A stretch of DNA of 59,922 bases. Origin: Burkholderiaceae bacterium. GTDB taxonomy: Bacteria; Pseudomonadota; Gammaproteobacteria; Burkholderiales; Burkholderiaceae_C. Position numbers and translations under genes: made by a program. The notes beneath the pieces were generated by a model. That model searched no databases, was not told where the DNA came from, and saw only the letters and a program-made list of their open reading frames with translations. The stretch spans positions 1-59,922 of the forward strand of contig SCQQ01000027.1 of the NCBI GenBank assembly GCA_004299095.1. Reading direction: 5' to 3'. Shown here one piece after another: positions 54,267 to 59,664 of the stretch (positions are counted from its first letter, which is position 1; each line of letters starts with the position of its first letter).

Positions 54267-54300
54267 TGCGCCAGGCCGGCGCGCGATGGAGGATGGACTG

Positions 54301-55740
54301 ATGCGCTACGTTTCTACGCGCGGCCAGGCACCGGCGCGCAGCTTCTCGGACATCCTGCTGGAGGGTCTGGCCCCGGATGGCGGCCTGTATTTGCCCGAGC
54401 GCTATCCGCAGGTCGATCGTGCGTTGCTGGCGCGTTGGCGCGAAACGCTCGCGCAACGGGGTTATGCCGCGCTGGCGTTCGAAATCCTGCGCCTGTACGT
54501 GGACGACATTCCCGAGCGCGATCTCCGGGAAATTTGCGCGCGCACCTACATGGCCGACGTGTTCGGCTCGGCTGCGATCACGCCGCTGAAAAAACTGGAC
54601 GACGGCTGTTACCTGCAAGGCCTGTCGAATGGCCCGACGCTGGCCTTCAAGGACTTGGCGATGCAGCTTCTGGGCCATCTGTTCGAGTACGAACTGGCGC
54701 GCCGCGGAACGCATCTGAATGTCCTCGGCGCCACCAGCGGCGACACCGGCAGCGCGGCCGAATATGCCATGCGTGGCAAACGGGGCATCCGGGTTTTCAT
54801 GCTGAGTCCGCACGGCCGCATGAGTGCCTTCCAGCAGGCGCAAATGTATTCGCTGCAGGACCCGAACATCGTCAACATTGCCATCGATGGCGTGTTCGAC
54901 GATTGCCAGGACATCGTCAAGGCGGTAAGCGCCGATCTGGAATTCAAGCGGCGCTATGCGATCGGCACGGTCAATTCGATCAACTGGGCGCGGCTGCTGG
55001 CGCAGGTGGTGTATTACTTCGCCGGTTATTTCCTTGCCACGGAGTCCAACGAAGAGCGCGTGAGCTTTGCCGTGCCCAGCGGCAATTTCGGCAACGTCTG
55101 CGCCGGCCACATCGCACGCCAGATGGGTTTGCCGATCGCCCAGCTGGTGGTGGCCACCAACGAGAACGACGTGCTGGACGAATTTTTCCGCACCGGCATC
55201 TATCGCGTGCGTGGCAGCGCCGAAACCCGTGAGACATCCAGTCCCAGCATGGACATCAGCAAGGCGAGCAATTTCGAGCGCTTCGTTTTCGATTGGCTGG
55301 GACGTGACGGTGCGCGCGTGGCCGAACTGTTCGGCAGCACCCTGGCAGGTTCGCGGCAATTCGATTTGAGCGGCGATCCGGCCTGGCCCGAGGTCGCGCA
55401 GCGCTATGGCTTCGTGAGCGGCAAGAGTACGGACGCGGAGCGCATCGCCACCATCCGGGCGGTTTATCGGCAATCGGGCCTGATCATCGATCCGCACACC
55501 GCCAATGGCGTGCGCACCGGGTGCGCGCACGCTCGCCCGGGCGTGGCTATGGTCGTGCTGGAGACCGCGCTGGCGGCCAAATTTGCGGCCACGATTGGAG
55601 GCGCCATCGGCCGGCTGCCGGAACGGCCGGCGCGTTTCGACGGCCTGGAAGAGCGGCCGCAGCGCGTGCGCGTGATGCCCGCTGACGTTGATCAGGTCAA
55701 GAACCTGATTGCGCATGCGGGCGACCTTGCATCGGTATGA
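54301..55740 (+). CDS. thrC: Threonine synthase
   Basis: Converts O-phosphohomoserine to threonine with PLP. The 479-residue protein is of the longer fungal/proteobacterial type: MRYVSTRGQAP at the N-terminus, the PLP lysine Lys117 in PTLAFKDLAMQ, GATSGDTGSAAEYAM and VPSGNFGNVCAGH. GGAGG just upstream of ATG 54301 decides against the in-frame ATG at 54286. It completes the alaA-hom-thrC unit and is followed by the P450 gene. Confidence 0.96.
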   Translation: MRYVSTRGQAPARSFSDILLEGLAPDGGLYLPERYPQVDRALLARWRETLAQRGYAALAFEILRLYVDDIPERDLREICARTYMADVFGSAAITPLKKLDDGCYLQGLSNGPTLAFKDLAMQLLGHLFEYELARRGTHLNVLGATSGDTGSAAEYAMRGKRGIRVFMLSPHGRMSAFQQAQMYSLQDPNIVNIAIDGVFDDCQDIVKAVSADLEFKRRYAIGTVNSINWARLLAQVVYYFAGYFLATESNEERVSFAVPSGNFGNVCAGHIARQMGLPIAQLVVATNENDVLDEFFRTGIYRVRGSAETRETSSPSMDISKASNFERFVFDWLGRDGARVAELFGSTLAGSRQFDLSGDPAWPEVAQRYGFVSGKSTDAERIATIRAVYRQSGLIIDPHTANGVRTGCAHARPGVAMVVLETALAAKFAATIGGAIGRLPERPARFDGLEERPQRVRVMPADVDQVKNLIAHAGDLASV

Positions 55741-55777
55741 CCGCGCCCCGGCCGCGCGGCGCCGCCGGGATCGCAGC

Positions 55778-55792
55778 GGTGCGCATCGCACC
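55778..55792. repeat. Perfect inverted repeat between thrC and the P450 gene
   Basis: GGTGCG-CAT-CGCACC forms a six-base-arm perfect dyad 38 bases after thrC and 77 bases before the P450 ATG. It could be an operator for an unlinked regulator or part of a weak terminator. A GACAAT hexamer at 55816-55821 downstream is a possible -10, with no good -35. AGGAG immediately before 55869 is a strong ribosome-binding site. Confidence 0.35.
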
Positions 55793-55868
55793 CGATGACG
55801 CGGCGCCGGCCGGGCGACAATCGGGCGGCCAGCCGCCGAATTGAGTTGCCATTGGGAGGACAGGAGAC

Positions 55869-58800
55869 ATGACCGCCACCATCGCCATTCCCCGCCCCAA
55901 GGGTGACCCGTTCATCGGCAACCTGCGCTCGATCGAAGGCGACACGCCGGTCCAAGGCTTCATGCGCCAGGCGCGCATCATGGGGCCAATTTACCAGCTC
56001 GAACTGTTCGGCAAGATGCTCACGCTGATCAGTTCGCAGGCGCTGGTAAACGAGCTGAGCGACGAGAAACGCTTCGACAAGCGCGTGCACGCCACGCTCA
56101 AGAACATTCGCGACTTTGCCGGCGACGGCCTGTTCACCGCCAAGACCGACGAGCCCAACTGGGCCACGGCGCATCGCATCCTGATGCCGGCGTTCGGTCC
56201 GCTGGGCATGCGCGGCATGGCGGGTGAGATGCTCGACATCGCCGACCAGATGCTGCTGCGCTGGGAGCGCTTCGGACCCGACCACGTGATCGAAGTCACC
56301 GAGGACATGACACGCCTCACGCTGGACACCATCGCGCTGTGTGCTTTCGACTACCGCTTCAACAGCTTCTACCAAGAGGGGATGCACCCCTTCGTCGGCG
56401 CCATGGTCGACGCGCTGGCGGAAGCCGGCGCGCGCGAACGCCGCCTGCCGATCGCCAACAAGCTGATGCTGAGCCAGCGCCGGCGCTACGAGGACGACTT
56501 GCTCCTGATGCGCGAGGTGGCCGAAAACCTGATCGCCGAGCGCCGCCGCGATCCGGACGCCGCCAGTAAGAAAGACCTGCTGAACCTGATGCTGCAAGGG
56601 CGCGATCCGGCCACGGGCGCGGGCCTGTCGGACGAGAACATCCGCTACCAGATGGTCACCTTCCTGATTGCCGGGCACGAAACCACCAGCGGCCTGCTCT
56701 CGTTCGTGATGTATTTCCTGTGCCAGAACCCGCGTGTGCTGGCCAAGGCGCGCGCGTTGGTGGACGAGGTGCTGGGCGACGACCTGCCGCAGGTCGAGCA
56801 GCTCGGCCGGCTGCGCTACATCGAGCAGATCCTGATGGAGTCGCTGCGCATCTGGCCGACGGCGCCGGCCTATGCCCTGAAGCCGCTGGAAGACACCGTG
56901 ATCGGCGGCCAATACGCCGTCACCCCGCGCGATACGCTGATGGTGCTCACGCCCATGCTGCACCGCGACACGGCGGTCTGGGGCGACGACGTGGAAGCGT
57001 TCCGCCCCGAGCGCTTCGACCAGGCGCTGATGGAAAAGCTGCCGCCCAATGCCTGGAAGCCGTTTGGCAATGGCCAGCGCGCCTGCATCGGTCGACCCTT
57101 CGCCATGCAGGAGGCGATGCTGGTGGTCTCGATGATCCTGCAGCGCTTCGACCTGATCCCGGACGACCCGGCGTACCAGCTCAAGGTCAAGGAAACGCTG
57201 ACGTTGAAACCGCTGGGCTTTCACATGCGCGTGAAGCGGCGCGACGGCGGCGCCTTCCGGCCGCGCAGCGCCGTGCCGCGCGAAGCCGCCAAGCCCGCGC
57301 CGGTCGCGCCGGTGGTGGGGTTGGGCCCGGGCGAGGTGGCCACGCCGCTTCTGGTGCTCTACGGCTCCAATACCGGATCGTCCGAAGCCTTTGCCCAACG
57401 CATCGCCAGCGAGGCGCAAGCCCAGGGCTACGCGGCGCAAGCCGCGCCGCTGGACGAGCACACGGGCGCCTTGCCGACCGAGGGTGCGGTCGTCGTCGTC
57501 ACCGCCTCCTACGAAGGACAGCCGCCGGACAACGCCAAGCAGTTCACCGCCTGGGTGGAAGCGCTGGCGCCGGGCGCCCTGAAGGGCGTGCACTACGCCG
57601 TGTTCGGCTGCGGCAACCGCCAGTGGGCGCGCACCTGGCAAGCCATTCCCAAGCGGCTCGATGCCGCGCTGCACGCCGCCGGTGCCACGCGCGCCAGTGA
57701 GCGCGGCGAGACCGATTCGGGCGGCGACTTCTTCGGCGCGTTCGACGAGTGGTATGCAGGGCTCTGGTCGGCGCTGGGGAAGGCGCTGGACAAGCCGGTG
57801 CAGGCCGCGCCCGTCGGCGCGCAACTGCACGTCGAGCGCGTGCAGGACGGCCGCACCAGCATCCTGCGCCTGGGCGATCTCGCCTACGGCGAAGTGGTGG
57901 AAAACCGCGAGCTGGTCAACATGCAGGCGCCCGGCGCACGCTCCAAGCGCCACATCGACATCCGCCTGCCCGCGGGCATGAGCTACCGCGCCGGCGACTA
58001 CCTGAGCGTGCTCGCGCACAACCCGGTCGGCGTGGTGATGCGCGCGCTCAAGCGCTTCAATCTTGCGGCCGACAACCAGATCGTCATCCGCAAAGCGGCG
58101 GGCAGCGTCACGTCGCTGCCGCTCGATTACCCGGTCACCGCGAGCGAAGTGCTGTTCCATTACGTCGAACTGGGTCAGCCCGCCACGCGCGCGCAGGTGG
58201 GGCAACTGGCCGCCGCTACGCGCTGCCCGCCCGAGCAGACCGAGCTTAAGGCGCTGGCCGAAGACGCGGCGTATCAACGCGACGTGCTGGCCAAGCGCCT
58301 GTCGGTGCTCGATTTGCTGGAGCGCTACCCTGCGTGCGAGCTGGACCTGGCCGCTTTTCTGGAAATGCTGCCGCCGGCGCGGGCGCGCCAATACTCGATT
58401 TCGTCCTCGCCGCTGTGGAACGCCGATCGCTGCACGCTCACCGTGGCCGTGGTCGATGCGCCGGCGCTCTCGGGCCAGGGCCGCTACCAGGGCATGGCGT
58501 CGAGCTATCTGGCCGCGTGCCAGTCCGGCACGCGTGTGGCCGTGGCGGTGCGCGCGTCCAACGACCATTTCCATCCGCCCCAGTCCCTCGACAAACCCAT
58601 CATCATGGTCTGCGCGGGCACCGGCCTGGCGCCGTTCCACGGCTTTTTGCAGGAGCGCGCCATCCAGGCGCAGAACGGCCGCAGCGTCGGCCCGGCACTG
58701 CTGTTCTTCGGCTGCGATCACCCGGATGTGGATTACCTGTACCGCGACGAACTGGCCGCGTGGGAGCGGGCCGGCGTGGTCAGCGTGCGGCCGGCGTTCT

Positions 58801-59054
58801 TCAAGGCGCCGCAGGGCGGCGTCGCGTTCGTGCAGCACCGCGTGTGGCAGGACCGCCCCGACGTGGCCGGGTTGTTCCGCAAAGGCGCGACGGTTTACGT
58901 CTGCGGCGACGGCCAACACATGGCGCCTGCGGTACGCGACACGTTCCTGCGCATCTACCAGGAAGCTGTCGGGTGCACGCGCGAGCAGGCCGAAGTCTGG
59001 GCCGACGAGATGGAGCACGAGACGGGCCGCTACGTCTCCGACGTGTTCGCGTGA
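55869..59054 (+). CDS. Self-sufficient cytochrome P450-reductase fusion, CYP102/P450-BM3 type
   Basis: A 1061-residue bifunctional NADPH-cytochrome P450, the architecture of Bacillus megaterium P450-BM3 (1049), which hydroxylates fatty acids. Heme domain, about 1-460: DFAGDGLFT with Phe89 (BM3 Phe87), DEPNW with Trp98, the oxygen-activation helix AGHETTS (268-274), ESLRIWPTAP and the heme ligand Cys406 in FGNGQRACIG. A Pro/Ala linker leads to the FMN domain from about 492 (VLYGSNTGSSEAFA, TASYEGQPPDNA, FGCGNRQWARTW). The FAD/NADPH domain follows (RQYSISSSP, CAGTGLAPFHGF from 915, YVCGDGQHMAPAVR). It is soluble, with no membrane anchor. Differences from BM3 are Lys49/Leu53 for Arg47/Tyr51, and a terminal Phe1060 in place of Trp1046. 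No TetR repressor is adjacent. Confidence 0.95.
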   Translation: MTATIAIPRPKGDPFIGNLRSIEGDTPVQGFMRQARIMGPIYQLELFGKMLTLISSQALVNELSDEKRFDKRVHATLKNIRDFAGDGLFTAKTDEPNWATAHRILMPAFGPLGMRGMAGEMLDIADQMLLRWERFGPDHVIEVTEDMTRLTLDTIALCAFDYRFNSFYQEGMHPFVGAMVDALAEAGARERRLPIANKLMLSQRRRYEDDLLLMREVAENLIAERRRDPDAASKKDLLNLMLQGRDPATGAGLSDENIRYQMVTFLIAGHETTSGLLSFVMYFLCQNPRVLAKARALVDEVLGDDLPQVEQLGRLRYIEQILMESLRIWPTAPAYALKPLEDTVIGGQYAVTPRDTLMVLTPMLHRDTAVWGDDVEAFRPERFDQALMEKLPPNAWKPFGNGQRACIGRPFAMQEAMLVVSMILQRFDLIPDDPAYQLKVKETLTLKPLGFHMRVKRRDGGAFRPRSAVPREAAKPAPVAPVVGLGPGEVATPLLVLYGSNTGSSEAFAQRIASEAQAQGYAAQAAPLDEHTGALPTEGAVVVVTASYEGQPPDNAKQFTAWVEALAPGALKGVHYAVFGCGNRQWARTWQAIPKRLDAALHAAGATRASERGETDSGGDFFGAFDEWYAGLWSALGKALDKPVQAAPVGAQLHVERVQDGRTSILRLGDLAYGEVVENRELVNMQAPGARSKRHIDIRLPAGMSYRAGDYLSVLAHNPVGVVMRALKRFNLAADNQIVIRKAAGSVTSLPLDYPVTASEVLFHYVELGQPATRAQVGQLAAATRCPPEQTELKALAEDAAYQRDVLAKRLSVLDLLERYPACELDLAAFLEMLPPARARQYSISSSPLWNADRCTLTVAVVDAPALSGQGRYQGMASSYLAACQSGTRVAVAVRASNDHFHPPQSLDKPIIMVCAGTGLAPFHGFLQERAIQAQNGRSVGPALLFFGCDHPDVDYLYRDELAAWERAGVVSVRPAFFKAPQGGVAFVQHRVWQDRPDVAGLFRKGATVYVCGDGQHMAPAVRDTFLRIYQEAVGCTREQAEVWADEMEHETGRYVSDVFA

Positions 59055-59139
59055 CGGCGTGGCGGCGTGATTGTGCTGGCGCGCCGAATGCCCGGGTGCT
59101 GATGGGTCCGCGGGCGGGCAACGAGGCGAGAGGGTTCAC

Positions 59140-59664
59140 ATGAAGGTCGTGTGTTTCGCAGGCTACTCGGGTTCGGGCAAGACCACGTTGATCGAGCGCG
59201 TGATTCCCGAGTTCAGGCAGCGGGGCCTGCGCGTTTCCACCGTCAAGCACGCCCATCACCGCTTCGACATCGATTACCCCGGCAAGGACTCGTACCGCCA
59301 CCGCGCCGCGGGTGCCTTCGAAGTGGTCGTGGCATCGGATCGGCGCCTGGCGTTGATCCGCGAATTCGAGCAGGAAACGCGTCTCTCGGTGCATGCGCTG
59401 ATCGCCAGGCTCGACCCCTGCGTCGACTGGGTGCTGGCCGAAGGCTTCAAGGAAAGCGATTTGCCCAAGATCGAAGTCTGGCGCGCGGCCACCGGCGAGT
59501 CGGCGCGCTTTCCGCTGGACCCCACCGTTCTTGCCGTGGCGACCGATGCGCCCGCGTCGCTGCCGCGGCCGGTGCGGATTCCCGTCTTGAGCCTGAACGA
59601 TCCTGCGGGTGTCGCGCGGTGGCTGTTACGGGGCAGCGAGCGCTTCGACTACCGCGCATCGTGA
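59140..59664 (+). CDS. mobB: Molybdopterin-guanine dinucleotide biosynthesis adaptor protein MobB
   Basis: A 174-residue P-loop GTPase that helps MobA attach GMP to molybdopterin. Walker A is GYSGSGKTTL (8-17); VKHAHHRFDIDYPGKDSYRHRAAGA in two adjoining segments and DWVLAEGFKESDLPKIEVWR are family hallmarks. GAGAGGG precedes the ATG at 59140; longer frames add atypical residues. In Burkholderiales mobB and moeA often follow thrC, so the P450 gene appears inserted into that block; moeA itself would lie beyond the window. Confidence 0.93.
   Translation: MKVVCFAGYSGSGKTTLIERVIPEFRQRGLRVSTVKHAHHRFDIDYPGKDSYRHRAAGAFEVVVASDRRLALIREFEQETRLSVHALIARLDPCVDWVLAEGFKESDLPKIEVWRAATGESARFPLDPTVLAVATDAPASLPRPVRIPVLSLNDPAGVARWLLRGSERFDYRAS

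Follow-up and report, generated by a model that had tools for sequence, protein, structure and literature searches.

The window, which is the whole stretch of DNA analysed here and amounts to 59,922 nucleotides, encodes a complete CYP102-type self-sufficient P450 with an altered NADPH pocket, and this pocket is the point worth following, giving as it does a simple prediction of NADH or dual cofactor use. We consider it fairly probable, from comparison with relatives, that the gene product is a functional, soluble, single-chain CYP102 fatty-acid or acyl hydroxylase that lies outside subfamily A, uses NADH about as well as NADPH, and was probably acquired horizontally. Electrons would pass from NAD(P)H through FAD and FMN to the heme, and O2 would be activated at the Cys-ligated heme, such that the acyl chain is hydroxylated near its end; the pocket changes would allow NADH to be accepted about as well as NADPH, and the gene would have been acquired beside mobB. 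The features on which this reading draws are as follows.

54286..55740, + strand: thrC, upstream neighbour (Pfam Thr_synth_N, PALP)
55854..55859, + strand: putative ribosome-binding site GGGAGG, 9 nt 5' of the P450 start (inferred from sequence)
55869..59054, + strand: CYP102-family self-sufficient P450 (heme, FMN and FAD/nicotinamide domains), 1061 aa (ORF, Pfam, phmmer)
55893..57215, + strand: P450 heme domain (Pfam p450)
56670..56687, + strand: I-helix AGHETT, the BM3 A264-T268 region (alignment to BM3 columns)
57063..57092, + strand: heme-ligand loop FGNGQRACIG, its Cys corresponding to BM3 C400 (alignment to BM3 columns)
57354..57752, + strand: FMN (flavodoxin) domain, residues 496-628 (Pfam Flavodoxin_1)
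57894..58508, + strand: FAD-binding domain, residues 676-880 (Pfam FAD_binding_1)
58605..58937, + strand: nicotinamide-binding domain, residues 913-1023 (Pfam NAD_binding_1)
58794..58838, + strand: altered 2'-phosphate subsite AFFKAPQGGVAFVQH, where BM3 has AFSRMPNQPKTYVQH (ungapped alignment to BM3)
59034..59051, + strand: C-terminal VSDVFA, with F at the place of BM3 W1046 (alignment to BM3)
59140..59664, + strand: mobB, downstream neighbour (Pfam MobB)

As the initial annotation had claimed, the P450 gene is a single uninterrupted frame, running for 1061 codons from ATG to TGA on the forward strand with no internal stop. Its four Pfam domains stand in the order found in P450 BM3 (CYP102A1 of Priestia megaterium) and all score above their cut-offs (p450, 237.5 bits; FAD_binding_1, 96.9; Flavodoxin_1, 90.0; NAD_binding_1, 45.5); a fifth match, to Flavodoxin_5, falls short of its cut-off. 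Among solved proteins, 9wuc_A ('SoP450'; phmmer 1.3e-294) gives the best match over the whole length; it is a full-length bifunctional P450 reductase that ends DVWA like BM3, with W at the 1046 place, whereas the window protein has F. We found AGHETT, ExxR, FGNGQRACIG, YGSNTGSSE, ARQYS, GTGLAPF and CGDG in the window protein, which we take to be the heme, FMN and FAD signatures, and the protein shares these with BM3 along with F87, A264, T268 and C400. Indeed, the columns of A264, T268, C400, Y536 and W574 are invariant across the 88 rows compared (the window, BM3 and 86 relatives; L042 and L101 were dropped as broken or incomplete, and L021 is a copy of L020), and F87 is kept in 87 of them, the remaining row being gapped there. 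The further claim that all cofactor motifs are intact holds for the heme, FMN and FAD signatures but fails at the residues that set NADPH specificity, to which we return below.

A CYP family unites proteins with more than about 40% identity to its members, and a subfamily those with more than about 55%. The window protein is 50.4% identical to BM3 over 450 heme-domain columns and 42.0% identical over 566 reductase columns, on the family side of the first limit; it also joins P450, FMN and FAD/nicotinamide domains in one chain (Pfam) and has the Cys heme ligand, the I-helix A-G-x-x-T and ExxR. Subfamily CYP102A was rejected, given 50% heme identity to CYP102A1 and a place in a 40-row clade separate from the Bacillota members, as were a CYP116B identity, the window protein having no Fer2 or 2Fe-2S match (Pfam), and a pseudogene or frameshift, the frame being open with a dN/dS of ~0.15 to the nearest relative. 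The gene is that of an intact and probably working CYP102-family enzyme outside subfamily A. The only other P450 that the P450 model found in the window's genome is an 822-aa frame (G000:C53; L088:2010-4478) with P450, NAD-binding and 2Fe-2S domains, a fusion that we take to be CYP116B-like; like the window P450 it would be self-sufficient, but it has no diflavin reductase. Both P450s found in this genome look self-sufficient, and they look to be of different classes.

The flanking genes had been named as thrC and mobB, which is borne out by Pfam, and the description of the P450 as an accessory gene agrees with its occurrence in the genus: a full-length copy is present in just one of 28 other genomes, several of which are incomplete. 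That copy, 88% identical, is in the congener G018 (locus record L018). Of the other genomes of the genus, 26 yielded thrC, and in 19 of these mobB begins no more than 200 bases after thrC with no P450 between them, a moeA match following mobB in 17 of the 19; in six others, no mobB was found within reach or it is 1.2 kb from thrC. In G018, mobB comes 87 bases after thrC and is itself followed by the P450 and then moeA, whereas in the window the P450 stands on the opposite side of mobB, in the gap after thrC. The window and G018 P450s share 87.9% amino acid identity (dN 0.069, dS 0.447, dN/dS ~0.15), as against 65-82% identity and dS of 0.54-1.42 for hom, thrC, mobB, phoH, bcp and alaA; both dN and dS of the P450 are the lowest among these seven shared genes. 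The empty thrC-mobB site in 19 congeners and the copy on the other side in G018 are consistent with recent acquisition, and we read the site positions together with the low P450 dS as separate or rearranged acquisition near mobB, a reading that is moderately supported. The window P450 was probably imported horizontally.

It is also possible, if in our view somewhat doubtful, that the gene was inherited vertically, lost in most congeners and kept under strong constraint, rather than acquired recently. Two independent insertions would rarely place the P450 next to mobB in both carriers, and the high GC3 of the gene in the window and G018 (0.89 and 0.92) may lower its dS somewhat; on the other hand, vertical inheritance fits poorly with the position of the P450 on opposite sides of mobB, with its presence in a single other congener, and with a dS below that of all the other shared genes. 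Searches of the interval 55741-59139 against a phage collection and of the contig end (59640-59922) against plasmids gave no match. Separately, G018 has a GDSL-lipase-like gene and, by eye, a small antitoxin-like gene between hom and thrC (L018:6395-7367), and insertions may have occurred here repeatedly. We also note that mobB is kept in the window's genome (99.5% complete) where no MoeA_N match was found, the same search having matched in 11 of 14 control genomes; 258 bases of the contig follow mobB.

The NADPH pocket of the window protein differs from that of BM3 at five positions. According to an excerpt of PMC11900375, the selectivity of BM3 for NADPH is aided by contacts of Ser966, Arg967 and Tyr975 with the 2'-phosphate, which show high conservation across FNR and diflavin reductases; our numbering gives these residues as S965, R966 and Y974. 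The site as treated here also takes in K972 and W1046, which appear among the BM3 changes tabulated for engineering from NADP to NAD (R966N/K972H/Y974F/W1046D; W1046A; R966D/W1046S) in an excerpt of PMC5817062. S965, R966, K972, Y974 and W1046 of BM3 are F, K, V, F and F in the window protein, and since the subsite aligns to BM3 with no gap, F965, K966, V972 and F974 can be read directly. At S965, R966, K972 and Y974 the window protein (F, K, V, F) lacks the set expected of an NADPH-specific diflavin reductase, although K966 keeps the charge and the site may still function. These changes make it most likely that NADH is accepted about as well as NADPH, and we predict relaxed or NADH-leaning cofactor use. 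CYP102G4 of Streptomyces cattleya, from an actinomycete subfamily, reportedly uses NADH and NADPH without bias and has Ala, Val and Tyr at the 966, 972 and 1046 places; the window protein resembles it in V at 972 and a non-W aromatic residue at 1046, and differs in K at 966 and F at 1046.

The altered pocket is widespread among the relatives. Thirty-one of the 88 rows have S, R, K, Y and W at the five positions, two have S, R, R, Y and W, and 55 have another set. Of these 55 rows, 43 have S at 965, 10 have K or R at 966, 39 have V and two have R at 972, and 43 have F and 11 have Y at 974, while at 1046 there are 51 rows with F, three with Y and one with W; with S965 kept in 43 rows and Y974 in 11, the branch-wide signal comes mainly from 966, 972 and 1046. 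A ranking of 565 reductase columns (L021, L148 and L149 left out) placed 972 fourth, 1046 fifth, 966 fifteenth, 974 eighty-eighth and 965 three hundred and ninety-sixth, and is used as description only, because the two groups ranked were set by these same five residues. The BM3 set also occurs outside Bacillota, in a Bradyrhizobium (L092) and in further Proteobacteria, including L100, from the same family as the window organism, and the actinomycete rows compared have an altered pocket, as in the window's clade. CYP102 proteins of Variovorax, Xenophilus, Rhizobacter, Reyranella and Methylobacterium (among L018-L086) are 62-88% identical to the window protein, the congener L018 included, and like it none of the full-length ones aligned has the BM3 set.

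A heme-domain phylogeny, which the initial annotation had put forward as a check, was made from 69 of the 88 rows (near-copies and L148 left out); it compares the window with these rows rather than with named CYP102 subfamilies, and the pocket site is outside its alignment. The altered state needs two changes on this tree, which is unrooted, such that gain and loss of the pocket look alike on it. The window falls within the 40-row clade mentioned above, all of whose members are of the altered kind (SH-aLRT 99, by a quick method); L149, which has a BM3-type pocket, sits on a very long branch. In the window's subclade of seven rows, 966 is K or R in six (L022 has E) and 965 is F or Y in all but L022; among the rows compared, F or Y at 965 is otherwise found only in L094.

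NADPH preference may nonetheless persist in the window enzyme, as K966 could still bind the 2'-phosphate and F1046 is a conservative aromatic change. Taken further, the enzyme would be an ordinary NADPH-dependent counterpart of BM3, in which K966 stands in for R966 and the other changes are neutral; the retention of K or R at 966 in six of the seven subclade rows would fit this, as would the aromatic character of position 1046 in every one of the 88 rows. We think it unlikely all the same, given that S965, K972 and Y974 are altered too, and that only two changes on the tree point to an old and stable altered state rather than drift.

With regard to substrate, the window enzyme likely hydroxylates fatty acids or acyl derivatives. 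F87, A82 and the I-helix residues are the same as in BM3. By contrast, R47 and Y51, the anchors of BM3 in an excerpt of PMC11900375, hold the substrate carboxylate and are K and L in the window protein, so carboxylate anchoring may be weaker. The initial annotation had called the substrate unpredictable from context, and no lipid gene indeed adjoins the window P450 between thrC and mobB; its class is nevertheless partly predictable from the neighbourhoods of relatives, some of which are adjoined by acyl-CoA synthetases or wax-ester synthases. We surveyed loci outside the S, R, K, Y, W class, the window not included, by calling genes with a script and scanning the immediate neighbours; leaving out the copy L021, 45 of 46 downstream and 47 of 48 upstream neighbours were counted, and five loci of the downstream set and nine of the upstream set have broken or partial P450 genes for which no motif was read. 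Thirteen of the 45 downstream neighbours match an AMP-binding enzyme, 10 of them also matching ACAS_N (Pfam), and since these 10 all belong to a single Reyranella-type lineage they are not independent and the association is suggestive only. NCBIfam scoring covered two of the 13: the neighbour at L045 passed a long-chain-fatty-acid-CoA ligase subfamily model (878.6 against a cut-off of 869), and that at L050 passed an acetate-CoA ligase model (674.5 against 657), with a propionate-CoA ligase score that was higher yet below its cut-off. The 47 upstream neighbours include WS/DGAT in three, TetR in eight and LysR in three. In L019, 77% identical and from the window's subclade, the P450, an alpha/beta hydrolase, a phasin and a WS/DGAT gene lie in a row. 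The neighbours of other relatives are unrelated. A search of the window's genome gave no WS/DGAT match, but none of 14 control genomes matched either, so the gene may still be present.

The natural substrate might instead be aromatic or xenobiotic. The K and L at the carboxylate anchors and the amidohydrolase genes upstream of the P450 in L020 and L090 are in keeping with this, and CYP102D1 takes indole and anthracene besides fatty acids, as stated in an excerpt of PMC9728198. We judge such a substrate improbable, since the window protein matches BM3 at F87, A82 and the I-helix and lipid genes adjoin some of its relatives. Lastly, it is extremely improbable that the gene is decayed or an artefact of assembly or binning: the window makes up a complete contig, one of 122 in its assembly, and stops shortly after mobB, but hom and thrC agree with the genus in gene order and divergence, and the P450 frame is open and constrained.

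As originally noted, no regulator gene adjoins the window P450, unlike BM3 with its adjacent TetR gene, BM3R1. The absence is not distinctive, given that a TetR_N gene lies upstream in the eight of 47 loci outside the BM3 class counted above and in 10 of 16 Bacillota loci. An adjacent operator was considered and rejected: the GC-rich stretch of 201 bases that holds a 12-nt near-palindrome (55818-55843) has eight inverted repeats in all, and comparing short words with the regions upstream of six relatives turned up matches of only 7 to 21 bases, so we place no weight on the palindrome. A scan for sigma-70 promoters between 55600 and 59300 found none.

CYP102 enzymes had been described as best known from Bacillus and some actinomycetes. 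CYP102 is common to alpha-, beta-, gamma- and deltaproteobacteria according to an excerpt of PMC9148083, so that the family is already in print for Betaproteobacteria and the window gene adds a member to it. Consistent with this, the 69 loci among the matches listed comprise 45 from Pseudomonadota, 16 from Bacillota, four from Actinomycetota, two from Chloroflexota and one each from Bacteroidota and Myxococcota, in a scan of named genomes with peptide patterns of the window protein that is no census. The gene is uncommon all the same: six of 399 genomes sampled from the order reach E 1e-100 and 18 of 398 from the phylum reach E 1e-150, the window's own included in each, and the order matches besides its own are one full-length, three to the heme region and one to the reductase only.

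Several loci depart from the usual arrangement. L102 and L103, from the window's order, have open frames of 475-499 aa for the heme part only (47-48% identity) and are probably stand-alone CYP102-like proteins. On plasmid pDND3A of Rhodococcus gordoniae (L095:4037-7131), a CYP102-like heme protein is encoded beside a separate flavodoxin-domain gene, with TetR upstream, apparently an unfused version of a CYP102 enzyme; unfused CYP102B1 and 102H1 have been described, as an excerpt of PMC9728198 states. Altered-type CYP102 genes on Deinococcus, Sphingomonas and Shinella plasmids (L089, L090 and L091) have a TetR/AcrR gene annotated next to the P450 or one gene away. Variovorax sp. JS1663 has two CYP102 copies (L020 and L021) in opposite orientation on one 166-kb contig, with the same called flanks; either a large segment was duplicated in inverted orientation or the assembly produced the second copy.

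A bolder reading, which we hold to be less likely than not, is that CYP102 comprises two functional branches. One would be NADPH-specific and include Bacillota, a Bradyrhizobium and several Proteobacteria; the other, larger and mostly unstudied, would run on NADH or on either cofactor, its NADPH pocket either lost or never present, and would span Proteobacteria, Actinomycetota, Deinococcota, Myxococcota and Bacteroidota. With S965 replaced by an aromatic residue, the window enzyme would then be a natural NADH-using analogue of BM3. Literature listings and abstract openings, mostly open-access, contained no report of cofactor preference across proteobacterial CYP102, and an excerpt of PMC5817062 describes engineering of BM3 toward NADH at the same positions that vary naturally here. 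The occupied and empty sites within one genus offer a comparison for how accessory P450 genes spread. Should the branch to which the window enzyme belongs prove relaxed by nature, it would supply many NADH-capable enzymes ready for use, and dependence on NADPH would characterise one part of CYP102, not the family as a whole.
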